The notes beneath the pieces were generated by a model. That model had not been told where the DNA came from. It worked only from the letters and a program-made list of their open reading frames with translations, and did no database searches. A program made the translations under genes and the position numbers. A stretch of DNA of 64,000 nt from a virus, in the IMG/VR virus record IMGVR_UViG_3300029893_000004, positions 1-64,000 of that record. One strand, 5' to 3'. Positions 1,773 to 56,337 of this stretch are shown here, piece after piece. Numbering within the stretch: position 1 is the stretch's first letter; the number at the start of each line of letters is the position of its first letter.

Positions 1773-1991
1773 CTACTCATTTTGGGGAGCAGCAGCGATG
1801 TCCTCGTACCTGAGCACCTCAACGCCGGCCCGGGCGTTGACGGCGTGCACGATCTGCAGCCAGCGGTCCGCTGGCGGCCGGATCTCACGCCGCAGCACGC
1901 GGCTGACGTACGGGATGCTGGAGCCCAGGTCTGCTGCGAGTTCCCGTTGGGACACGCCTGCAGCCTTCACGATGTCGCGGAGGTTCTTCAT
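1773..1991 (-). CDS. HTH transcriptional regulator (repressor candidate)
   Basis: 72 residues forming a single helix-turn-helix domain. AAGVSQRELAADLGSSIPYVSRVLR at about residues 11-35 fits the XRE/Cro class. There is no dimerisation or cleavage domain, so it resembles Cro-type or short C repressors. Its promoter (2000-2028) contains an inverted repeat that overlaps the -10 box, so autoregulation is likely. From the -10 box the transcript should start about two bases before the ATG, making the mRNA nearly leaderless, a pattern known for phage repressors. It points away from the plus-strand regulator at 2095. HTH identity is secure; the role as repressor of the CTTTAC operators is inferred. 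Confidence 0.85.
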   Translation of the reverse strand: MKNLRDIVKAAGVSQRELAADLGSSIPYVSRVLRREIRPPADRWLQIVHAVNARAGVEVLRYEDIAAAPQNE

Positions 1992-1999
1992 GGTCGGAC

Positions 2000-2028
2000 A
2001 CTTTACTGTCGGTAAAGCAGAAGGTCAA
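2000..2028 (-). promoter_or_regulatory. Promoter with overlapping operator
   Basis: Minus strand: TTGACC (2028-2023), a 17-nt spacer, then TAAAGT (2005-2000). The inverted repeat CTTTAC-TGTCG-GTAAAG at 2001-2017 covers the -10 box and part of the spacer, so bound protein would block RNA polymerase. The same promoter-operator geometry recurs on the plus strand at 9051-9079. Confidence 0.75.
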
Positions 2029-2094
2029 GCAGAAGGCGAAGCGCTTGACTGGCACGCATTCAACAATTCGGACAACCTGATCCATGATCCCGAC

Positions 2095-2586
2095 ATGGGA
2101 CGGAAGAAGGACATGACGCTGCGCTTGGAGCTACGAGCGGCCCGCGGGCTGCGGCAGCTCGACGTGGCGGAGCGCGCAGGCATCAGCGCGCCTGCCGTGA
2201 GCCGGCTCGAAAATGAGCGCGAGTCGTACAACTACACGATCCAGACGGCGCAGCTTGTTGCCGACGCCTTGGGCGTGCACCTGTACGAGCTGTACGGCTA
2301 CGAGTACCCGCCGCCGTGGCGCACGAACACCGTTCGGGCGAAGCTGCACGGGCTCATTGACCAGCTCGACCACCGCAACGTGCAGGTGCTCATGCGCGTG
2401 ACGGAGGAGTTGCTGGCGCAGCCCCAGGAGGGGCCGCCGGAAGCTGCGGTCACGGTGCTGCTGCGCGTGGCGCAGGACATGCTGAAGCAGCCCCCGGCAG
2501 AACCGCCGGCATCCGCACCAGAGGATGCGACACCGCCCGAGAACGAAGCGCCTCGTCCACCGGATAAGCCACGCCGGCGAAGATGA
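2095..2586 (+). CDS. XRE-family HTH regulator
   Basis: 163 residues from ATG 2095. The HTH LRQLDVAERAGISAPAVSRLENER lies at about residues 18-41 and includes the typical XRE second-helix pattern. A linker, a helical segment with two similar halves (VQVLMRVTEELLAQ and VTVLLRVAQDMLKQ) and a Pro/Glu-rich basic tail follow. It diverges from the 1991 regulator across about 100 bp containing the operator. An alternative start at ATG 2113 follows GAAGAAGGAC but would remove only six residues. No good sigma70 promoter is visible for this gene. It may be a second repressor or an activator. Confidence 0.8.
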   Translation: MGRKKDMTLRLELRAARGLRQLDVAERAGISAPAVSRLENERESYNYTIQTAQLVADALGVHLYELYGYEYPPPWRTNTVRAKLHGLIDQLDHRNVQVLMRVTEELLAQPQEGPPEAAVTVLLRVAQDMLKQPPAEPPASAPEDATPPENEAPRPPDKPRRRR

Positions 2587-2818
2587 CCGCCCGCACCTGG
2601 CGGTATCGCACGCGCCCGTCCACGCTCTCGACGCCCCAGCCGACCACGACGCCGTCGTCCGAGCCGGCCGCTGCATCATCCAGAAGAAGGACCCGCGGAT
2701 CGGTCGCAAGCCTGCGCTGCGACGCGCCTTCCACCGGCTCGACCCATCCGCCAACCACGCGCACCTCGAGCACGACGCTCATGCCCGTCTCGCCGATCTG
2801 CCACTGAGCCCAGGCCAT
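2450..2818 (-). CDS. Possible hypothetical protein, antisense at its 3' end
   Basis: 122-residue frame from ATG 2818 (MAWAQWQIGETGMSVVLEVR). The first 75 residues look like genuine protein (VRVVGGWVEP, RVLLLDDAAAG, VRAVIFAGVAYPVDEAL) and fill an otherwise empty 230 bp. The last 45 residues run antisense to the 3' end of the 2095-2586 gene and look like shadow coding. A good minus-strand promoter (2863-2891) lies just upstream. A start at 2782 is also possible. I do not recognise a family. Moderate confidence because of the antisense overlap. Confidence 0.45.
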   Translation of the reverse strand: MAWAQWQIGETGMSVVLEVRVVGGWVEPVEGASQRRLATDPRVLLLDDAAAGSDDGVVVGWGVESVDGRVRYRQVRAVIFAGVAYPVDEALRSRAVSHPLVRMPAVLPGAASACPAPRAAAP

Positions 2819-2862
2819 TTTTTGCCCCACAGTAATTTTTGACTTGCCCTGACTTGCCCCAC

Positions 2863-2891
2863 GGTATACCTTCCACTTGACTGTGAGGCAA
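2863..2891 (-). promoter_or_regulatory. Minus-strand promoter in a divergent control region
   Basis: TTGCCT (2891-2886), a 17-nt spacer and TATACC (2868-2863) on the minus strand. The -10 lies inside the palindrome GGTATACC (2863-2870). On the plus strand the same TATACC is preceded by the tandem repeat GACTTGCCCT/GACTTGCCCC (2841-2860), which offers imperfect -35 boxes, so a plus-strand promoter for the recombination operon may overlap here. Confidence 0.55.
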
Positions 2892-2980
2892 GCGCAAAGC
2901 GCACCCATCGCCGGCTGTACAGCAACCGGCACCCGCTGCTCGACCGTCGAGCAGTACAGAATGCCCGTTCCCTGAACGGG
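2892..2980. repeat. Cluster of inverted repeats upstream of the recombination operon
   Basis: Four palindromic elements stand in 90 bp: GCGC-AAA-GCGC (about 2892-2902), GCTGTACAGC (2914-2923) inside a GCCGG/CCGGC stem, CTGCTCGACCGTCGAGCAG (2936-2954, nine-base arms) and CCCGTTC-CCT-GAACGGG (2964-2980). Together with GGTATACC just upstream this is the densest palindrome field in the window. It could hold operators, a processed leader or an origin. No gene lies between 2819 and 3090. Confidence 0.6.
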
Positions 2981-3090
2981 TGTCTAGTGTGCTGGTTGCG
3001 GCTGCAACGTTGGTCGGTCTCGCAGGTCGCTTTGATTCTCGCGAAGTTGCGCGGCGGTTACGTTCCAGTCGAATTCTCAGGAGGTGGACC

Positions 3091-3444
3091 ATGGATTGCG
3101 CTATCGACGTCGTCGCCAAGCGCCGGGGGCGGTTTTTCGACGTGCAGCTTCCGCTGGGCGTGCGCCTCGCGTTCGCGCGGCTCGGAATCGAGGGGTGCGA
3201 CATCGAGAGCGAGGCGAAAGACATGGCCCGCGACTTCGTGCGCAACGGACGCCCCGGGCTCGACGAGGTGCCGATGCGACTGCGCGTGACGGTGGAGATC
3301 GAGGTCGGCATCGGCGCCTGCGGCTGCGGACAGCTCGGCGAGAGCTTCCGCACCGTCAGCGGGTGGCGGGTCATGTGCGCGGACTGCCAGCGCATCGTGC
3401 AGGCCGCGGAAGAGGCGGAGGAGGCGGGCTGCGAGCCCGCGTGA
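3091..3444 (+). CDS. Small zinc-ribbon-like protein
   Basis: 117 residues from ATG 3091, chosen because TCAGGAGGTGGACC precedes it; the longer frame from 2980 has no ribosome site and crosses the palindrome cluster. The C-terminal half carries CGCG then CADC (ACGCGQLGE and VMCADCQRIVQ), a plausible zinc-binding pair. The first half (VQLPLGVRLAFARLGIEGCD) is unrecognised. It leads the recombination operon: the next gene starts 11 bases after its stop. A nucleic-acid-binding accessory is possible but not shown. Confidence 0.75.
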   Translation: MDCAIDVVAKRRGRFFDVQLPLGVRLAFARLGIEGCDIESEAKDMARDFVRNGRPGLDEVPMRLRVTVEIEVGIGACGCGQLGESFRTVSGWRVMCADCQRIVQAAEEAEEAGCEPA

Positions 3445-3455
3445 GGAGGAGCAGG

Positions 3456-4562
3456 ATGAACCAGCAGCAGTACGACGAGGGCACGGGCGAGGTCCGCTAC
3501 CAGGTCATGACCGAGCCGCAGATCGAGGCGCTGATCAAGACCATCTGCAGGATGACGGCCAAGCGGCCCGAGCTGTGGATGGAAATCGACAAGGACGCCG
3601 ACCCGTACCTCGGCGCCGACGGCGCGAAGCTCGTGGCCACGGGCTTCCACATCAGCATCACGAGCGTCAAGTTCGACGAGCCGGAGCGCACCGGGGAGAA
3701 GGACGACAACGGCGAGGAGATCGTCGGCTACGGCGTGCACATCACCGGCCGTCGCACGATGGAGGACGGCACGGTGCGCGAGTGGACCGACTACGGCCAC
3801 GCCATGACCGACCTGAAGCAGATCGTGGCGCAGCGCTCGCGGGTGTACGCCCGCGACTACGGCAAGGACATCAAGAAGGGCGACAAGAAGGAGCCGAGCC
3901 TGACGCGGGGCGAGGCGATGAGCCGCGCGCGCGACATGGCGAAGGCCCGCGCGCTGAACCGCGTGATCACGGGCATCCTGGGCATCCCGGCCATCACCTG
4001 GGACGACCTGGAGGTCAACGGCATCAGCCGCGACGCGGTCAAGTCGCGCGACGGCAAGAGCAAGGACGCCGACTTCCTCTGGACGGTCCTCAAGGGCAAC
4101 GCGCGCGGTCTGACCAAGGACGACCTGGGCGCCGTGTCGTCGCGCATCTGCGGCGGCTTCGCCAAGATCACCGACATGAGCGCCAGCCAGATCCGCGACG
4201 TCGCCCGCGAGCTGCGCGCCATGCAGCAGGGCAACGGCCAGCCGCGGGCCCAGCAGCGGCAGGCGCAGCAGCAGCGCGAGCCGGAGCCGCAGCGCCAGCA
4301 GCCGGCGCAGCGCCCGGCGGACAACGGCAACGGCGCGGCGCGCGCCAGCGACGAGCAGCAGGCGGCGCTGCGCGACGGTGCGAAGGAGCTCGCGGCACTC
4401 GGCCAGCAGGGCGGCATGGTCGCGGCGCTCGAGGCGGTCGGCTGGCAGCGTGGGAGCCAGTCGGTGAGCGCGCAGCAGGCCGAACAGGCCATCGCCTGGA
4501 TGAAGGCGCGCATCGCCGACCTGAGCGCCGGCGTCCCCAACGACGACGACATCCCCCTCTGA
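3456..4562 (+). CDS. Putative ssDNA-annealing or recombination protein with SSB-like tail
   Basis: 368 residues from ATG 3456 after AGGAGGAGCAGG. An N-terminal domain of about 250 residues contains SRARDMAKARALNRVITGIL, reminiscent of phage annealase and Rad52-like recombinases but not diagnostic. A Gln/Arg-rich linker (about 257-293) and a small helical domain follow, ending in PNDDDIPL. That acidic tip is the hallmark of bacterial SSB tails, and the phage SSB at 46699 ends SDDDIPF. The protein could compete for or copy SSB-tail contacts with recombination enzymes. It sits directly upstream of SbcD and SbcC homologues, supporting a role in DNA-end recombination. Function is inferred from context and tail only. 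Confidence 0.65.
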   Translation: MNQQQYDEGTGEVRYQVMTEPQIEALIKTICRMTAKRPELWMEIDKDADPYLGADGAKLVATGFHISITSVKFDEPERTGEKDDNGEEIVGYGVHITGRRTMEDGTVREWTDYGHAMTDLKQIVAQRSRVYARDYGKDIKKGDKKEPSLTRGEAMSRARDMAKARALNRVITGILGIPAITWDDLEVNGISRDAVKSRDGKSKDADFLWTVLKGNARGLTKDDLGAVSSRICGGFAKITDMSASQIRDVARELRAMQQGNGQPRAQQRQAQQQREPEPQRQQPAQRPADNGNGAARASDEQQAALRDGAKELAALGQQGGMVAALEAVGWQRGSQSVSAQQAEQAIAWMKARIADLSAGVPNDDDIPL

Positions 4563-4570
4563 GGTGACCC

Positions 4571-5770
4571 ATGTGGAAGATCATGCACATCGCCGACGTG
4601 CACCTGGAGCGGTCGACGCGCTGGGACGAGCAGCGGCGCGCCATGGCCGCGCTCCGGCAGCACGTGACCGACCGCCGCCCCGACGTCGTGTGCGTCGTAG
4701 GCGACCTGCAGAGCCCACACTCCACGCGGCGCCTGCACCCCGAGGAGCGCAACGAGTGGCGCGAGCTGTTCCTGCACTGCCGCACGGCGGGCGCGAGCGT
4801 CGTGCTCGTGCGCGGCAACCACGACCCGAAGGGCGACGGCCTGCACTTCGTCGACGTGGGCGTGGCGTACGTCGAGACGCCGCAGATCGTGTCGTTCGAG
4901 GACGAGCGGGGCAGGCTGAACATCCACTGCCTCCCGTACCCGGACGCGCAGGACTGGCTCGACGGCACGGAGCCAGCGGGCGAGCGCATCGCGACCATCA
5001 CGCGCCGCGTCGAGGAGCAGGCGCTCGCGTGGGCCGAGGCCGCTGACCCGCGCGCGACCAACGTCCTGGCCTACCACGGCGCGCTGCGCGACGCGGTCAT
5101 CCGCGTCGACGAGAAAAGCCAGCCGAAGGTCGGCGCCGAGCCCCGGCCGTCCGTGCAAGCGTTCAGCGGCTTCCGCGCCGTGCTCATGGGGCACTACCAC
5201 CTGAGCCAGATCATCCGCCCGAACGACACGTGCGTTGCGGCGTACGTGGGCAGCCCCTGGCCGCACACCCACGGCGAGGAGGGGCAGGCCGACAAGGGCG
5301 TGTTCGAGTGGACGGTCGGTCCGACGCACGTCGAGGAGCCGCGGCGCCTGACGCTGCCCTACACGCGGCGGCTCACCTACCACCTGCACTACGACGGCGG
5401 CTTGCGCTGGATCGACGGCACGCCGTTCGGGTCCATCAACGGCCGGGCGCCGTCGCCGGTCGTCGCCACTGAAGGCATGGTGCGCGATGCGATCGTGCGC
5501 GTCGTCGTGCGCTACCCGAAGGGCCTCGCCGATGCCATCAGCAAGGAGGCCATCGGCGCCGAGTTCACGCGCGCCGGGGCGAGCGTCGTCACCGTGCACC
5601 CGTCGCCCGAGCACGACGACCGCGTGCGCGTCGAGGCGCTGGCGTCCACGCACGCGCTGCCGACGCTCCACGACAAGCTGCAGGCCATGTGGCAGGCCGA
5701 GGGCATGCCGGCCGGCGCACCGCCCGCCGGCTGGATTCTCGACGCGTGCGCGCAGCTCCAGGCGGAGTAG
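4571..5770 (+). CDS. sbcD: SbcD/Mre11-type nuclease subunit
   Basis: 399 residues, equal to E. coli SbcD in length. All calcineurin-like phosphoesterase motifs are present in order: DVH at 9-11, GD at 44-45, GNHD at 82-85, YHG at 168-170 and GHYH at 207-210; these bind two metal ions in Mre11 enzymes. With the ATPase encoded immediately downstream it should cleave DNA ends and hairpins. Start ATG 4571 follows GAGGTGACCC and lies nine bases after the previous stop. The C-terminal 150 residues form the capping region, less conserved. Comparable phage pairs are T4 gp47/gp46 and T5 D12/D13. Confidence 0.92.
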   Translation: MWKIMHIADVHLERSTRWDEQRRAMAALRQHVTDRRPDVVCVVGDLQSPHSTRRLHPEERNEWRELFLHCRTAGASVVLVRGNHDPKGDGLHFVDVGVAYVETPQIVSFEDERGRLNIHCLPYPDAQDWLDGTEPAGERIATITRRVEEQALAWAEAADPRATNVLAYHGALRDAVIRVDEKSQPKVGAEPRPSVQAFSGFRAVLMGHYHLSQIIRPNDTCVAAYVGSPWPHTHGEEGQADKGVFEWTVGPTHVEEPRRLTLPYTRRLTYHLHYDGGLRWIDGTPFGSINGRAPSPVVATEGMVRDAIVRVVVRYPKGLADAISKEAIGAEFTRAGASVVTVHPSPEHDDRVRVEALASTHALPTLHDKLQAMWQAEGMPAGAPPAGWILDACAQLQAE

Positions 5771-5779
5771 GAGGACACC

Positions 5780-8700
5780 ATGCAGATCCATCGCATCACG
5801 ATCGAGAACTACAGCCGCTGGCGGAACCGCCGGGCGATCATCGACCTGGACGTCTACGGCCCGGGCGCCATCCAGCTCGCCGGACGCAACGGCGCGGGCA
5901 AGACCACGATTCTCACGGCGCTGCTCGCCGCGATGCTGGGCGAGGACCCGCACACGGCGGACATCGACCGCAAAGCCCACACGGGCCGCGCCGTGATCGA
6001 GGTCGAGCACACCTTCGCCGGGCACCGCTGGCGCCACCGGCTGGAGATCAAGAGGTCCAAGAAGAACGACGGCAAGCAGAAGTTCGAGCACGTGGGCTTC
6101 GTCTGGCGCGACGGCGAGGCGCTCGCCGAGTTCAGCGGCCCGGGCAAGTGGACGGCGTACAAGGCGCACAACCTCGCGCTGCTCGGCAGTCAGGAGTTCT
6201 TCTACACGACCGCCTATAGCGTGCAGCGCGCGGCGCCGCTCAACAACCGCGTGCCCACGTCGCTCGCGCAGTGCACGCCCGAGCAGAGCGAGAAGATCCT
6301 GGCCGTCGCCGGTGGCGTCGACGCCCAGAAGGCGTTCGCGCTCGGGGCCTTCGCCAAGGCCAAGGCCGCGCGCGAGCAGCTCGACGGGCTGCGGCCGCAG
6401 GTCGAGCGGCTGGCGTCGCTCGAGGCGCGCATCGCCCAGACGACCGACCGCCAGACGGCCGCAGCCGAGGCGCTGGACGCCGCGCAACAGGCGCACCAGC
6501 GGGCCGGCGACCGACTGACGCAGGCCACGGCCGAGCGCGACGCCCTGCGCGCGCAGCAGGCGGAGGCCGAGCGCGTCACGGAGCGGCGCCGGGCGCTGCT
6601 CGACGAGCACACCCGCCACACCCAGGCGCAGGAGCGCGAGCGCGCGACGCGCGCGGCAGTCGACGACGCAGCGAGCGCCTACGACGCGGCACGCGCCGTG
6701 CTCGCGACGGCCGTGGACCGCCTGACCGCCGCGCAGACGGCCGCGGCCGACGTGCATCAGGCCATCCTCCGCCGGCAGGACGCAGAGCGCGTGCTGGCGG
6801 ACATGCGCGGCCGGCTCGCGACCATGCAGGCCGACCACGAGCGCACGCGGGACAACGCCAACTGGCTGCGCGCGCAGGTCGAGGGCGCCGAGCGCGACCT
6901 GCAGGCCGCCCAGACGAGCGCCGAGCGCGCGGAGACGGCGCTGGCCGTCGCCCAGGCCGAGCACGGGGCGGCGTCCAGCCAGGCCGAGCGCCGGGCCGAC
7001 GCCGAGCGCGCGCTGCGCGAGGCCACGGCCGCGGCGGAGCGCGCGGCGACCGCACGACAGCAGGCGCAGCAGCGGGCACAGGACGCCGAGCACGCAGCAC
7101 AGCAGGCGCAGGACGCCGAGCGCGCGGCGGTCGAGGCGTTCCAGCGCGCGAGCGCCGGGGAGGCGGAGGCCCTGCGCCAGCGCCGCGACGCGCTGCGCGA
7201 GCAGTACCAGATCGAGCAGGAGCGCCTCGACGTGCTGCGCGGCGAGCGCGAGGCCGCGCAGCAGCGGGTGACCGAGGCCCGCGACGAGGTGCGCGCGCGG
7301 CAGGCGGACGTCACGCAAGCCAACGCCGCGCACGAGGCGGCGCGGCTGGCACTGGACGCCGCGCAACGACAGGCAGCGCTCGTCGACGAGGTGCCGTGCC
7401 GCGGTCAGGGCGGCTTCGCCACCTGCAAGCTGCTGGCGGTCGCCGTGCAGGCCCGGCAGCAGGTGCCGGCGCTCACTGCGGCCCTGGACGAGCGCGGCGA
7501 GGCAGCGCGCGACGCCGCGGCCGCCGCGCGCGACGCGGAGGACGTGGTCCGCGTGCGGATCGCGGACGTCGAGACCCGCGACCGCGCGCTGTACGAGCAG
7601 CGCGAGCGCATGGACGCGCTCGTCAAGTCCGGCAAGGAAGCGGCCGCCGCCCTGCGCGCGGCAGAGGAGACCGAGACGGCCGCCCGCGCGGCGCTCGACG
7701 ATGCGCGCAGCCGGCGCGCGACCGCGGACAGCGCCCTGGCCCTCGCCCGGCAGGGCCTCGACAACCTGACCGCGCAGAGCAACCAAGCGCTCGACGCGCG
7801 CACGCAGGCCGAGGCGCGGCTGGCGGAGCTGCCGACGGTCGACCTGGCCGGCGCGGCGGCGCGGCTCACGGCGACCCAGGGCGCCGCGCGGCAGGCCGCC
7901 GATCGCCTGCGCAGCCTGCGCGAGACCATCGCCCGGCGCCCCGAGCTCGACACGCTCGCCGACCGGCTGGCGACACTCGCCACGGACGTGCAGGCGCTCG
8001 CTCAGCGCGCGGACGAGGCGGCCGCCAGCCTCCCGCCGCTCCCGGACCGCAGCAAGCTCGACGCGCTGACCGAGTTTCAGACCGCCGTGCAGACCGCGCG
8101 CGCAGGCGAGAAGTGGGCGCACGAGGCGCGGGACGACGCGAAGCGCGATCACGCCAAGGCCGCGGCCGCGCTGGGCACGCTGCGGCCGGCGCAGGCCATC
8201 GCCGACGATCTGGAGGCGCTGCCTGCGGTCGAGCCGCCCGACGAGATCGCGGTGCTGTTCGCCGGGCAGGCCGTGGACGAGGCCGAGAGCGCGCTCGCGA
8301 CGGCCGCAGCCGGGGTGCGCGAGGCGCAGTCGGCGCTCGACGAGATCGGCGGCGCGTTGGGCGCGCTGCGCGCGGAGCTGGCGGCGATGGGCGACGTCCG
8401 GGCGCAGATCGCGGCGCTCGAGGAAGAGGTCGCGCGCTGGAAGTGGCTGTACGGCGAGATCAGCCGCCTCATCACGCTCATGGTGCAGGCCACGGCCCCC
8501 GCGCTCAGCGCGCGCATCAACCGCTTCCTGGCCGAGTGCTTCGGCGACCGCTACCGCGTGCGGATCGAGCCGTTCACCGAGAACAGTTCGAACGACGGCG
8601 AGCGCAAGACGTACACGATCTGGGTGCTCGACACCGAGACCGGCGAGGAGCGGCACCTCGACACGTTCAGCGGCGGAGAGTTCGGGCCGCAGCTCCAGGC

Positions 8701-9034
8701 CATCCAGTACGGGCTCATGCTGTACCGCAACGAGAACTGTGACCGCCCGTGGCTGACGCCGTTCGTGGACGAGGGCGACGCAGCGCTCGACCCGGACGCC
8801 TACGGCCAGTGGAAGCAGATGATGGCCGCGGTCATCGAGTCAGGCGCGCTGCATCAGGTGCTCATCGTGTCACACAAGGGCGAGCTGGAGTGGGCGCAGC
8901 AGCTCGACGTGTCGGCCATCGACGGCGAGCCGATCGATGCCGAGGACGGCGAGGCCGACAGGCCGCGCAAGCGCCGCAAGAAGGAGGCTGCACCCGAGCC
9001 GGCCGAGACCATGGCACAGGCGGATCTTTTCTGA
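5780..9034 (+). CDS. sbcC: SbcC/Rad50-type ATPase
   Basis: 1084 residues, start ATG 5780 after GGAGGACACC. Walker A GRNGAGKTT is at 35-43. Long Ala/Glu/Arg/Gln-rich coiled coils run from about 190 to 520 and 560 to 880. The ABC signature FSGGEFG is near 962, Walker B FVDEGDAALD near 993 and the H-loop VSHKGE near 1029. At the coil apex, where Rad50 has CxxC, this protein has PCRGQGGFATCKLL (about 538-550), a wider cysteine pair that may still form a zinc hook. It partners SbcD. The repetitive coil explains the enormous antisense open frames over this region. A T-rich run follows the stop without a clear stem. Confidence 0.92.
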   Translation: MQIHRITIENYSRWRNRRAIIDLDVYGPGAIQLAGRNGAGKTTILTALLAAMLGEDPHTADIDRKAHTGRAVIEVEHTFAGHRWRHRLEIKRSKKNDGKQKFEHVGFVWRDGEALAEFSGPGKWTAYKAHNLALLGSQEFFYTTAYSVQRAAPLNNRVPTSLAQCTPEQSEKILAVAGGVDAQKAFALGAFAKAKAAREQLDGLRPQVERLASLEARIAQTTDRQTAAAEALDAAQQAHQRAGDRLTQATAERDALRAQQAEAERVTERRRALLDEHTRHTQAQERERATRAAVDDAASAYDAARAVLATAVDRLTAAQTAAADVHQAILRRQDAERVLADMRGRLATMQADHERTRDNANWLRAQVEGAERDLQAAQTSAERAETALAVAQAEHGAASSQAERRADAERALREATAAAERAATARQQAQQRAQDAEHAAQQAQDAERAAVEAFQRASAGEAEALRQRRDALREQYQIEQERLDVLRGEREAAQQRVTEARDEVRARQADVTQANAAHEAARLALDAAQRQAALVDEVPCRGQGGFATCKLLAVAVQARQQVPALTAALDERGEAARDAAAAARDAEDVVRVRIADVETRDRALYEQRERMDALVKSGKEAAAALRAAEETETAARAALDDARSRRATADSALALARQGLDNLTAQSNQALDARTQAEARLAELPTVDLAGAAARLTATQGAARQAADRLRSLRETIARRPELDTLADRLATLATDVQALAQRADEAAASLPPLPDRSKLDALTEFQTAVQTARAGEKWAHEARDDAKRDHAKAAAALGTLRPAQAIADDLEALPAVEPPDEIAVLFAGQAVDEAESALATAAAGVREAQSALDEIGGALGALRAELAAMGDVRAQIAALEEEVARWKWLYGEISRLITLMVQATAPALSARINRFLAECFGDRYRVRIEPFTENSSNDGERKTYTIWVLDTETGEERHLDTFSGGEFGPQLQAIQYGLMLYRNENCDRPWLTPFVDEGDAALDPDAYGQWKQMMAAVIESGALHQVLIVSHKGELEWAQQLDVSAIDGEPIDAEDGEADRPRKRRKKEAAPEPAETMAQADLF

Positions 9035-9050
9035 CCCGGGCGGTTTTTTC

Positions 9051-9079
9051 TTGCCCTGCGACTTTACCGAGGGTAAAGT
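9051..9079 (+). promoter_or_regulatory. Operator-controlled plus-strand promoter
   Basis: TTGCCC (9051-9056), a 17-nt spacer and TAAAGT (9074-9079). The inverted repeat ACTTTACC-GAG-GGTAAAGT (9061-9079, eight-base perfect arms) covers the -10 box and part of the spacer, as in the minus-strand promoter at 2000-2028. Transcription should start near 9086 and read into the methyltransferase gene through a leader of about 140 nt. Confidence 0.75.
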
Positions 9080-9228: not shown

Positions 9229-9807
9229 ATGAGCAGCACGAACCGAGGCGCCGAGCGCCACCCACACGACTTCTACGCGACGCCGGCCGACACGACGCGG
9301 GCGCTGGTGCGGTGGCTGCTACGGCGCGGCGAGTTCCCGGAGCGCACGCTAGACCCGTTCGCCGGTGACGGCGCGATCCTGCGCGTGCTGCGCGAGGAGG
9401 GCCACTGCCCCACGCGCCTGCACGCCGTCGAGATCCGCCCCGAGATGGAGGCGCCACTGCGCAAGGCCACGGACAACGTGACCATCGGCGATTGGTTCGC
9501 GATGCAGCCAGAGCGGCGTGCCTTCGTCCTGACGATCATCACCAACCCGCCGTTCTCGCTGGCGGAGCAGTCCGTGCGCTCGTGCGTGGCCGTGGCAGAC
9601 ACCACGATCATGTTGCTGCGCCTCAACTTCTGGGGCTCGCAGAGGCGCGCCTTGCTGTTCCGCCACTGCCCGCCGGCGCACTGCCTGATCCTGCCCAAGC
9701 GGCCGAGCTTCACCGGTAACGGCAAGGTCGACTCGATCGAGTACGCGTGGTTCATCTGGCGCCGCGACCATCGCGGCCCGTGCCTGACCGAGAGACTGGA
9801 GGACTGA
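9229..9807 (+). CDS. Adenine-specific DNA methyltransferase-like protein
   Basis: 192 residues from ATG 9229 after TGGAGGACAG. AdoMet motif I LDPFAGDGAI is at about residues 41-50 and the catalytic motif TNPPFSLAE near 105. This DPFxGxG then NPPF order fits N6-adenine methyltransferases of alpha or gamma type. HDFYATPADTTRALVRWLL at the N-terminus is typical of phage methylases of this small class. No partner endonuclease is nearby, so host-mimicking methylation or restriction evasion is more likely than a complete restriction system. It heads the short operon to 11210 behind an operator-controlled promoter. Confidence 0.75.
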   Translation: MSSTNRGAERHPHDFYATPADTTRALVRWLLRRGEFPERTLDPFAGDGAILRVLREEGHCPTRLHAVEIRPEMEAPLRKATDNVTIGDWFAMQPERRAFVLTIITNPPFSLAEQSVRSCVAVADTTIMLLRLNFWGSQRRALLFRHCPPAHCLILPKRPSFTGNGKVDSIEYAWFIWRRDHRGPCLTERLED

Positions 9808-51856: not shown

Positions 51857-52176
51857 GTGATGACCTCGCGCATGGCCGCTGCCACGTCGCGCTTGAGCTG
51901 AATCACCCGGTCGTGCAGTTGCCGCGCCGCCTCCTCGGGCCTCGAGCACCACGACGTCTCGACGTGGAAGCCCGGCAGCGACGCGACGCCCTTCCAGCCG
52001 ACCGCCTCGCCGTCGGCTGACTCGACGTCCAGCGTCACGCCCGGGCCGTCGTAGGTCCAGGCGTCGCAGTCGGCGTCGAACACGAGCTGTGCGCGCCCGA
52101 CGCGCAGAACGTCCGGGTCGTCGGCCGGGCGGCCGTCGCGCAGATCCTTGACCTTGGGTCGCTTGGCGCTTGTCAC
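51853..52176 (-). CDS. Hypothetical protein
   Basis: 107 residues from GTG 52176, in a GTGA overlap. Beta-rich core (GRAQLVFDADCDAWTYDGPG, VTLDVESADGEAVGWKGVAS, PGFHVETSWCSRPEE) with a final helix. The alternation and WxYDGPG look like a small barrel. No known family. Confidence 0.6.
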   Translation of the reverse strand: MTSAKRPKVKDLRDGRPADDPDVLRVGRAQLVFDADCDAWTYDGPGVTLDVESADGEAVGWKGVASLPGFHVETSWCSRPEEAARQLHDRVIQLKRDVAAAMREVIT

Positions 52177-52460
52177 AGTGCGTTCTTCCCGCGGTCGTGC
52201 CGCGTCGTGCCGAGCTTGCGCAGGCGCTGCGCGACGGCCGCCTGAGTCATGCCAGCCTCGTTCGCGATCTGCGGCTGAGTCGCGCCGTTCCGGTACGCCT
52301 CCGCCATGGCCTCGCTCACCGCGCGGCTCTCGGGCGTCTCCGTCCGGCCCTTGCGCAGCCGGCCCGTGATGCGCGCCGGGTCGTCGCCGGTCAGCTTGGC
52401 GATCTTCTCGACAGTCAGGCCGCCAGCGATGGCGGCCCGGATGATGGGGGCTGGGATCAT
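52173..52460 (-). CDS. HTH DNA-binding protein
   Basis: 95 residues from ATG 52460 after GTGAAGGAGGCCCCC. It contains two possible HTH segments: AGGLTVEKIAKLTGDDPARI near 12-31 and NGATQPQIANEAGMTQAAVA near 58-77, both with turn glycines. Tandem HTH architecture is found in phage transcription factors and homing-type regulators. It overlaps the next gene by GTGA and stands next to a lipoprotein gene. Confidence 0.75.
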   Translation of the reverse strand: MIPAPIIRAAIAGGLTVEKIAKLTGDDPARITGRLRKGRTETPESRAVSEAMAEAYRNGATQPQIANEAGMTQAAVAQRLRKLGTTRHDRGKNAL

Positions 52461-53812: not shown

Positions 53813-54006
53813 GGCAACGGTCTCCTCTGCATTGGGCAAGGGATCTTGGAGTCGCACAGCCCGCCGCACCCGCAAACGGCGCACGTGGCGTCGCCGTAGC
53901 GGCACTTGTCGAGCGTGCGCTTGTGCGTTTCGCAGTAGATATCCTCGCGGTAGCGCCGGCGGCGGGCGTTGCGCTTACGATCCATCAGCTTGCCTACCCA
54001 GGGCAT
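53809..54006 (-). CDS. Small zinc-finger protein
   Basis: 65 residues from ATG 54006, in a TGATG overlap with the ATPase stop. A basic helix (KLMDRKRNARRRRYREDIYC) precedes many cysteines: YCETHKRTLDKCRYGDATC, VCGCGGLCDSKIPCPMQRR. Two zinc sites are possible. The gene begins where the truncated ATPase ends, so the ATPase C-lobe could have been lost at this junction. Confidence 0.6.
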   Translation of the reverse strand: MPWVGKLMDRKRNARRRRYREDIYCETHKRTLDKCRYGDATCAVCGCGGLCDSKIPCPMQRRPLP

Positions 54007-55475
54007 CAGGCCGTCCCCCACTCGTCTTCCGCGAGGATCTCCGAGCAGAGCACCGTCGCGGCCGTCAATTCCTCGTTCGCGCCACCCGCCTCGATGTAGC
54101 CTTGGATGCGACGCACCTTCTCGGCGAGGCTTCGGGCGAACCGCCGGGCGTCTTCGAGCGGAGTTGAACCTGCCTCGGCCGCGCGGACCCTGACGTACGC
54201 TCCGTAGCTACCCTGGATCGCTCGGAGCTCGCTCGCTGTGGCTCGAACCTTCGGGGCGAGGGCTGCATCGATCTCTGCGGAGATCCCTTGGATCGCAGCG
54301 TCCATCTCCTTCAGAGTTGCTCCCAAGGCATGCTGCTCGGTGGACATCTGCTCCGCTGCGACACGAAGCTCCACCCGCAAGCGCTGAACCTTGGCCGCTT
54401 CTGCCTGGGCGGCTTCGAGGGTGGACTCGGGCGCGCGCACTTCGGCATGCCGCTGATGTTCGGGTTCAGCTCCACAGTAGTCGCACGATTTTTCGCCGTA
54501 CATCTGCAGGAGATAGGCAGACTCCTTCATGGCATCGAGCCGAAGAAGGTCCGACTCATAGTGTGCGTCGAGCAAGGACGCGCGTGCGAGCATCGCGTCG
54601 AGTTCATCCAACCGCCCTCGATGCTCGCGTTGCTGGGTAAGGAACTTGGCCCTCTTGGACTCCGCGGCGCGAAGATCGCTCAACGCCGTGCTCGACAGAT
54701 CGCCCAGTTCACGCAGCTTGGCTTCGAGTTCAGACGCCAGCTCAGGCGTGATGTCCATGCTCTGGAGGAGCTCATCGAGCGCGGCCTGGTCACGCTCAAG
54801 CAGACCCTCGATCGCCTCCTTCCGCCCTGCCAACCGGCCCGCGGACGTTTTCGCATCCTCTGGCTGCACGATGGCGGAATCATCGACACCGGTGAGCAAC
54901 ATCCGGATCATACTTGCCGCGGCAGTGTTGCCGGTATTCTGGGAACCGTAGAGCGGAGAGCGCTTCGCGATGATTCGCTCTTCATCGACGATCAGGGCCT
55001 TGGACAGGACCCGGAAACTGGCCTCCTGAGTCGTCCCGCTATCGTTCTTGCGGACTCGCCTGCCATCAAGGCCGCACAGGCCAAGCAAGAAGCCGGAGAC
55101 AGACTCCTTGGCGTTGGTGGTCTCGCCCAGAACCTCCCACTCGATGTCGGCTCCGAGTGCATCGTCGATCGGCCCGCGAAAGAGCCCGATCTTCCCACCA
55201 ACGAGCGCACGCTTCAGGGTGTAGAACTGGCCGTCGGCCGCTTCGATGCACAGATAGGCGACGTCGTACGGTCTTGCCTGCGGGATCTCTTCGGGAGGGG
55301 TGCCGGCGCCCATCACGAAGTCGATGCAGCTCAAGGCGTAGGACTTCCCCGTATCCGACGCCCCCTCGATGACGTTGAGCCCCGACGCGAAGACGAGACT
55401 CCCGGCCACCTGACCAGGGCCACAGAGACGAAGCTCCCGAAGCTCGAAACCGCGGCGAGCGCTCTCGTCTGTCAT
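54006..55475 (-). CDS. ABC-3C system ATPase, lacking the C-terminal lobe
   Basis: 489 residues from ATG 55475. It matches ABC-three-component ATPases at the N-terminus: FELRELRLCGPGQVAGSLVF, Walker A GASDTGKS at 38-45, LLGLCGLDGRRVRKNDSGTT, LIVDEERIIAKRSPLYGSQN and LLTGVDDSAIVQPEDAKTSA. A coiled coil follows with a zinc-hook CDYC near 330-333, then a returning coil. It ends soon after, EILAEDEWGTA, without an ABC signature or Walker B. Family members have roughly 150 more residues. Base and codon use look less GC-biased than in neighbouring genes, suggesting transfer. It is coupled by ATGA to the middle component. ATP hydrolysis is unlikely in this form. Confidence 0.78.
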   Translation of the reverse strand: MTDESARRGFELRELRLCGPGQVAGSLVFASGLNVIEGASDTGKSYALSCIDFVMGAGTPPEEIPQARPYDVAYLCIEAADGQFYTLKRALVGGKIGLFRGPIDDALGADIEWEVLGETTNAKESVSGFLLGLCGLDGRRVRKNDSGTTQEASFRVLSKALIVDEERIIAKRSPLYGSQNTGNTAAASMIRMLLTGVDDSAIVQPEDAKTSAGRLAGRKEAIEGLLERDQAALDELLQSMDITPELASELEAKLRELGDLSSTALSDLRAAESKRAKFLTQQREHRGRLDELDAMLARASLLDAHYESDLLRLDAMKESAYLLQMYGEKSCDYCGAEPEHQRHAEVRAPESTLEAAQAEAAKVQRLRVELRVAAEQMSTEQHALGATLKEMDAAIQGISAEIDAALAPKVRATASELRAIQGSYGAYVRVRAAEAGSTPLEDARRFARSLAEKVRRIQGYIEAGGANEELTAATVLCSEILAEDEWGTA

Positions 55476-55972
55476 GTCGACCTCCCTGAGCCGCGGTACT
55501 CGGCGAACTGCCCACCCCAGCGATCGAGCTCTGTATTGACGTATCGGCTGATCTCGCTGGTCTCCAACTCTCCGAAGCTCGCTGCGATCCAGCTCGCGCG
55601 GCTCCGAAGGGCTTCGACATACTTGCTGCGGAGCGAGTCCAGGAAGCAGCCGCCTCGGTCGGTTGCGCCGTAGCTGAAACCGTTCGCGTCCATCGTCACG
55701 GAGACCAGACCGCGCCTGGCGTACAGGGCAAGGCCAGGCTCCAGCACGGCACGTCGGACGAGCACTTCGGCTCCGCGTTGTGGCACCGCAGGATGGAGAC
55801 TCTCCGGGCCACCGTCCACGTCCGCCGAGTGGACCAGAAGGTAGTCGAGCAGAACGAGCCGCTGAAGGTCGTGGCGATGAGGATCGAGCTCGACGAGGAT
55901 GCACAGCGAGCGGAGCCCAAGCTCGACTGGCGAGTTGAACACCCAGGATGTCGTGGCGTCCGGCGTGCCCAT
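55472..55972 (-). CDS. ABC-3C system middle component
   Basis: 166 residues from ATG 55972 (TGATG overlap). VFNSPVELGLRSLCILVELD, DLQRLVLLDYLLVHSADVDG, ESLHPAVPQRGAEVLVRRAV and GLVSVTMDANGFSYGATDRG follow the family pattern of ABC-3C middle components, small winged-helix-like adaptors linking the ATPase and an effector. The upstream gene, expected to be the effector, is only 63 residues and does not resemble one, so the system seems incomplete. ABC-3C loci are predicted anti-mobile-element systems; a phage copy may be a decoy, inhibitor or superinfection-exclusion device. Confidence 0.8.
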   Translation of the reverse strand: MGTPDATTSWVFNSPVELGLRSLCILVELDPHRHDLQRLVLLDYLLVHSADVDGGPESLHPAVPQRGAEVLVRRAVLEPGLALYARRGLVSVTMDANGFSYGATDRGGCFLDSLRSKYVEALRSRASWIAASFGELETSEISRYVNTELDRWGGQFAEYRGSGRST

Positions 55973-56163
55973 CACGGCACCCACTTGAGCCGAGCGTTGT
56001 CGGCGAGCTGGTGGCAGATGCCTGCCTTGTCCTTGACCCCGAGCACCTGACCGACGCCGCTGGTCCAGCGCACGCGCACGACGCCGCGCCCTGCCTCCGT
56101 CTTGTGCTTGTTCTTGCGCCGGCCCTCGGTGTGACTGCGGCGGCGCAGGATGTTCGTGTTCAC
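55972..56163 (-). CDS. Small basic protein upstream of the ABC-3C pair
   Basis: 63 residues from GTG 56163 with GGAGGCGGGG. Basic N-terminus (VNTNILRRRSHTEGRRKNKH) followed by VVRVRWTSGVGQVLGVKDKA and ICHQLADNARLKWVP. It looks like a small SH3-like beta barrel with a basic arm, similar in style to nucleic-acid-binding adaptors. It overlaps the middle component gene by TGATG. Confidence 0.55.
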   Translation of the reverse strand: MNTNILRRRSHTEGRRKNKHKTEAGRGVVRVRWTSGVGQVLGVKDKAGICHQLADNARLKWVP

Positions 56164-56309
56164 CGCCCCGCCTCCGCCGTCCGCGCCCCGTCCTGCAGCC
56201 CGCGCTCGTAGCCGTGCTGCCACGCCTCGCCGAGCGCCGCTGCGCTCATCCACACGACGAACCCAATCGCCGCAATCGCGCACGCGGCAGCGGTCAGGAG
56301 TCGGATCAT
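56160..56309 (-). CDS. Small membrane protein
   Basis: 49 residues from ATG 56309 after GAGGTGACGC. One transmembrane helix (LLTAAACAIAAIGFVVWMSA) and a short charged tail (EAWQHGYERGLQDGARTAEA). It is the first gene behind the third CTTTAC operator and overlaps the next gene by GTGA. A holin or conflict-related membrane peptide is possible; not assigned. Confidence 0.6.
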   Translation of the reverse strand: MIRLLTAAACAIAAIGFVVWMSAAALGEAWQHGYERGLQDGARTAEAGR

Positions 56310-56320
56310 GCGTCACCTCG

Positions 56321-56337
56321 CTTTACTGACGATAAAC
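56321..56337 (-). promoter_or_regulatory. Operator of the CTTTAC family
   Basis: On the plus strand CTTTAC-TGACG-ATAAAC, an imperfect inverted repeat like 2001-2017 and 9061-9079. It stands 11 bp before the start of the 56160-56309 gene. A minus-strand -10 could be TATCGT or TAAAGC, but no good -35 is visible, so the promoter may need an activator. Confidence 0.5.

Follow-up and report, generated by a model that had tools for sequence, protein, structure and literature searches.

Two divergent XRE genes, encoding proteins of 72 and 163 amino acids, lie on either side of the palindrome CTTTAC-N5-GTAAAG (site 1) in the window, i.e. the whole 64,000-nt stretch that was analysed (Table 1). The window is part of a linear, 82,095-bp virus record of the IMG/VR type with a GC content of 71%. 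According to the gene model made in this analysis, 91% of the record was coding. Leftward from site 1, the 72-aa gene is followed by genes for a nucleoside-deoxyribosyltransferase-like protein and an N6/N4 methylase, and this operon probably runs on across the record ends into the helicase and DnaB genes. A second copy of the palindrome (site 2) lies ahead of another methylase gene, and an imperfect third copy (site 3) precedes a small ORF and Lamassu-type genes.

For TerL and MCP, only distant matches were found. As all of them were below 60% identity, the virus was considered an orphan, and the phage collection searched contained nothing closely related to it. The start of the N6/N4 methylase gene was present at both record ends (1-373 and 81785-82095), and the right-hand copy had an internal deletion. 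This repeated, partly deleted copy suggests that the ends overlap; they are probably an overlap or a variant of a circular or terminally redundant genome. In addition, a long perfect palindrome, ATAACGTTAGCTAACGTTAT, was seen at the 3′ end of dnaB (74489-74508). Tyrosine/serine integrase, AAA_31-type ParA and protelomerase (PF00589, PF00239, PF13614, PF16684) were all absent from the record, which may be incomplete. Lysogeny is therefore unsupported.

Table 1. Coordinates of the XRE genes, putative operators, promoters and associated genes
Feature	Position	Strand	Description
72-aa XRE/Cro-type regulator	1773-1991	-	Heads the leftward operon; favoured candidate binder
Leftward promoter	2000-2028	-	TTGACC-N17-TAAAGT
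Putative operator site 1	2001-2017		CTTTACTGTCGGTAAAG; perfect 6-bp arms, N5 spacer
163-aa XRE regulator	2095-2586	+	HTH_3; divergent from the 72-aa gene, CI-like position
Rightward promoter	9051-9079	+	TTGCCC-N17-TAAAGT
Putative operator site 2	9062-9078		CTTTACCGAGGGTAAAG; exact 6-bp arms, palindrome extends to 19 bp (9061-9079)
192-aa DNA methyltransferase	9229-9807	+	First gene behind site 2; phrog_799 (1e-41)
LmuB	54006-55478		Profile positions 3-411 of 610; PADLOC LmuB (3.1e-101)
LmuC	55472-55984		Near-complete; PADLOC LmuC (2.4e-51)
LmuA tail	55972-56163		After the 49-aa ORF; last 28 LmuA residues only
49-aa ORF	56160-56309	-	Small, probable membrane protein; behind site 3
Putative operator site 3	56321-56337		CTTTACTGACGATAAAC; 10/12 arm positions
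68-aa XRE gene	70717-70923	-	Outside the window; own operator family, GTAACGYGGCGCTAC
Degenerate fourth site	73101-73117		Adjoins a TTGACA-17-TACGGT frame; ahead of the terminase gene

The sequence-only reading had proposed that the same half sites occur at three places. In a search of the complete record, which had been set beforehand as a test of the motif, two exact copies (2001-2017 and 9062-9078) and one copy matching 10 of the 12 arm positions were found. Thus, the half sites are the same at sites 1 and 2, whereas site 3 has ATAAAC as its right arm instead of GTAAAG. Allowing one mismatch revealed sites 1 and 2 only, and allowing two added site 3 alone. All three sites were intergenic in a record that is mostly coding. 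At 71% GC, no such copies are expected by chance: none that was exact appeared in 300 second-order Markov shuffles made from the full record, and a pair of identical-arm AT-rich N5 palindromes was absent from all 200 shuffles. The sequence-only reading had named a motif lying mostly within genes, at the frequency of chance, as the outcome that would refute its proposal; the record did not show this outcome. A hairpin or terminator reading of the palindromes was dropped: the arms have 6 bp, no T-run follows them, and no terminator was called at site 1 or 2.

With up to three mismatches allowed, the forward pattern had five matches and the backward control ten, so that matches with three mismatches are mostly noise; those in the window at 2281, 49861, 56337 and 62220 were regarded as such. 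A PWM built from sites 1, 2 and 3 set them sharply apart: they scored 30.9, 28.6 and 28.0, the degenerate site at 73101 scored 20.9, and the rest reached 13 or less. CTTTAC/GTAAAG hexamers occur eight times in the record, five of them in sites 1-3 and a sixth in the degenerate site. Another three-mismatch match, at 2876, lies together with a word at 2853 in the gap 2586-3091, ahead of the rightward operon. Their PWM scores (13.0 and 10.5, respectively) were just above background, with about 0.05 and 0.2 expected from noncoding shuffles. The segment 2840-2892 of this gap also has a TTGCCC/TATACC region like that of site 2, and its operator-like words are degenerate only.

Sites 1 and 2 both lie on promoters, and the observation that they share one geometry on opposite strands was borne out. 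Both promoters fit the frame TTGMCC-N17-TAAAGT with its 17-nt spacing, and the palindrome takes the identical position in each, with five of the six -10 bases and 12 spacer bases falling within it. The site 2 promoter has eight of 12 consensus matches, which is below the threshold of 9/12 used in our promoter scan. At site 3, the idea of three promoter regions did not hold as well: the only promoter there, on the minus strand, is poor (TTGTAT-16-TATCGT); the palindrome covers its -10, and the geometry is unlike that of sites 1 and 2. A common operator on the promoters of the 72-aa gene and the methylase operon is well supported, as the motif is rare, palindromic and intergenic and has the same geometry on both promoters. 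Between the site 2 promoter and the methylase gene at 9229 lies a leader of some 150 nt, which has GGAGG ahead of the ATG; the product of this gene had no Pfam or NCBIfam match. Because the ATG of the 72-aa gene lies only 8 nt past its -10 and has no Shine-Dalgarno sequence, we infer that its mRNA is probably leaderless or nearly so.

The 72-aa protein had Pfam matches above cut-off to HTH_31 (1.1e-07) and HTH_3 (8.5e-07), a match to YdaS_toxin (8.7e-04) under the Pfam cut-off of that family, and a match to phrog_35, repressor. Its AF2 model had five helices, with a pLDDT of 86.7. The top PDB neighbours of the model were C.BclI, an XRE-like protein of P. syringae, ClgR, DdrO and C.AhdI, and C.Esp1396I and C.EcoT38I ranked lower. 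The TM values were about 0.5-0.7, and, as the Foldseek E values were at least 0.04, these matches indicate a fold class and carry no claim of homology. No relatives of the 72-aa protein were found in IMG/VR, phages, plasmids or GTDB genomes; its sole IMG/VR match (L004) was ParB-like and so not an orthologue. Likewise, sequence searches of the PDB and the family libraries matched it to no C protein. An AT-rich inverted repeat, AAATGA-N7-TCATTT (1764-1782), spans the stop codon of its gene. The 163-aa protein matched HTH_3 in Pfam (2.2e-10) and the DdrO HTH (7e-07), with the DdrO-like match confined to the HTH domain, and no relatives of it were found in IMG/VR or phages.

A third XRE gene encodes a 68-aa protein and seemed to have a different operator. 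GTAACGYGGCGCTAC was found at three places round it (70672-70686 on the minus strand, 70706-70720 and 70950-70964 on the plus strand), and one copy lies in the spacer of the gene's own promoter, TTGACG-18-TACCAT. XRE genes typically autoregulate, and the similar placement of GTAACGYGGCGCTAC implied that this phage regulates its XRE genes in this way. As the 68-aa protein has its own, different putative operator, it is unlikely to bind the CTTTAC sites, and the CTTTAC operator therefore falls to the XRE pair at site 1. Within this pair, we favoured the 72-aa protein as the probable binder of CTTTAC-N5-GTAAAG, since site 1 covers the promoter of its gene and small XRE controllers are the nearest folds to its model.

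Three other explanations were weighed. Only the promoters might be conserved, with TTGMCC-17-TAAAGT serving one sigma factor and the palindrome being incidental. Both promoters indeed have TAAAGT, and the right arm of the palindrome overlaps with it. However, sigma-70 does not read the spacer, in which the left arm lies; site 3 retains the palindrome without the promoter frame, and the expectation for perfect 6+6 arms occurring twice is near zero in the shuffles. We consider this explanation extremely improbable. The binder might also come from the host or be another HTH protein of the phage, and not a neighbour of site 1. Other phage HTH proteins are encoded at 52173-52460 and 70717-70923; against this, two XRE genes flank site 1 and the 68-aa XRE protein has its own three-site operator, which leaves such a binder improbable.

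The 163-aa protein is the remaining candidate. It could be a CI-like repressor for which the operator silences the leftward early and methylase operons, with the 72-aa protein being Cro-like and perhaps binding as well. Its gene lies across site 1 from the 72-aa gene, as cI does from cro, and the protein extends C-terminally past its HTH. By position, it is as good a candidate for the binder as the 72-aa protein, and it may also be a co-binder. As site 1 covers the leftward promoter only, the 163-aa gene would remain on while the rest is off. In PY54 and CP-933P, CI-like and Cro-like proteins both work in a common intergenic region (PMC4488713, PMC8630535). However, with integrase, AAA_31-type ParA and protelomerase all missing from the record, lysogeny is unsupported; the 163-aa gene has no good promoter beside site 1, and site 1 is a single operator instead of a tandem OR array. 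We see the CI-like reading as a real though rather unlikely alternative.

Similar layouts were found in other elements. In an unrelated element (L012), TTGCCT-N17-TAAAGT encloses CTTTACAATGCGTAAAG, which is of the form CTTTAC-N5-GTAAAG, and an XRE gene lies 7 nt downstream. The promoter and XRE gene of Azospirillum rugosum (L057) are identical to those of L012. Because the L012 XRE protein could not be aligned to the 72-aa or the 163-aa regulator, this case supports the architecture and not common descent. In L028 and L029, small putative DNA-binding proteins are encoded 12 and 7 nt behind the operator-promoter pattern, and the L029 protein had no Pfam match. L029, a 36,969-bp virus record, has two copies of TTTACATTACGTAAAG (5664-5680 and 1800-1816), one of them placed 7 nt before the ATG at which a putative HTH protein of 72 aa starts, and is apparently another autoregulon. 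The operator-plus-promoter pattern matched mostly within coding sequences of AT-rich contigs, which was taken as chance, and, with so many coding regions matched, L012, L028 and L029 serve as examples and not as a statistic.

The region behind site 3 had been called an ABC-3C region. Among the PADLOC matches listed for it, there was no ABC-3C model, and the best were Lamassu LmuB and LmuC; from these profiles it seems better named a Lamassu-type LmuC/LmuB pair with an LmuA tail. The effector part appears to be missing, or the 49-aa membrane ORF appears in its place. Site 3 may plausibly belong to the regulon as a weaker member, and the link to this distant region is the least certain part of our reading.

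With modest confidence, we lean towards CTTTAC-N5-GTAAAG as the operator of a phage XRE repressor of the Cro/C1 type, most probably the 72-aa product. A repressor dimer would read both hexamers, the centres of which are 11 bp apart, about one helical turn. At site 1, the dimer would block the -10 of its own promoter and thus limit both itself and the leftward early operon. At site 2, bound with the same geometry, it would turn off the rightward methylase operon, and site 3 may be a weaker site ahead of the small membrane ORF and the LmuC/LmuB pair. We infer binding, repression and the identity of the XRE binder, whereas the sites, how rare they are, their place between genes, the geometry of the promoters and the HTH character of both flanking genes were shown here. 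A small regulon of the regulator starting at 1991 had been suggested. Its promoter-linked operator, on the regulator's own gene and on the methylase operon, stands; the binder is only probable and site 3 is weaker.

C proteins of R-M systems are small autoregulated XRE dimers. The 72-aa protein is similar to C.Esp1396I, C.AhdI and C.Csp231I in being a small XRE protein with a putative operator on its own promoter, and C proteins are among the top PDB neighbours of its model. Sites 1 and 2 precede a regulator gene and a methylase gene, and the C-boxes of Esp1396I are placed likewise, one ahead of the C gene and the other ahead of that for the methylase; leaderless transcripts are common for C genes, too (PMC4824078). 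The C.Csp231I target, CTAAG-N5-CTTAG, has two 5-bp arms and a 5-bp spacer (PMC4321490). However, the arm sequence differs here, and the libraries searched gave no sequence match to C proteins. Unlike in C systems, no restriction endonuclease was recognised among the scanned genes at site 1 or 2, where methylases are present, and the methylase at site 2 lies 7 kb from the 72-aa gene on the opposite strand. Each promoter here has a single operator, with one copy at site 1, instead of the OL/OR pair of C genes. As neither an endonuclease nor an OL/OR pair was recognised, we did not class the 72-aa regulator as a C protein.

Phage systems offer further comparisons. PY54 has one 16-bp palindromic operator between cI and cro, which is bound by Cro, and its cI and cro mRNAs are leaderless (PMC4488713). 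As in PY54 immB, two divergent regulators here have a single palindromic operator between them. However, PY54 Cro represses cI and not itself, whereas our putative operator is on the small protein's own promoter, and PY54 is a telomere phage, whereas protelomerase is absent here. In CP-933P, the operators are common to PaaR2 and YdaS and lie over their promoters and a second distant promoter (PMC8630535). There, too, a small XRE protein faces a second regulator, and the YdaS match of the 72-aa protein is sub-threshold. In contrast, the CP-933P operators are arrays of 18-bp repeats with a different sequence, and toxin-antitoxin genes were not recognised here. As with lambda cI/Cro and OR/OL, one operator occurs at two or more phage promoters and HTH_3 regulators stand back to back; unlike in lambda, there are single sites instead of triple operators, and lysogeny is unsupported.

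The case for an autorepressor regulon, in which two putative operators are strong and one or two others are weak, is convincing. It is conventional, of the Cro/C-protein type, and leaves current views of XRE regulation unchanged. It is rather doubtful that the DNA methylase and the effector-less LmuB/LmuC pair are linked to the early operon through one small Cro/C-protein-like regulator encoded there. If they were, a phage autorepressor would set the time in infection at which self-modification and a remodelled defence complex are expressed. The regulon itself would mean that C-protein-style logic, i.e. control of its own gene and a methylase, operates in a phage in which no endonuclease was recognised. 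It also provides a testable regulon in a phage without close relatives, as the operator has the same geometry on two promoters and there is a clear candidate for the repressor.
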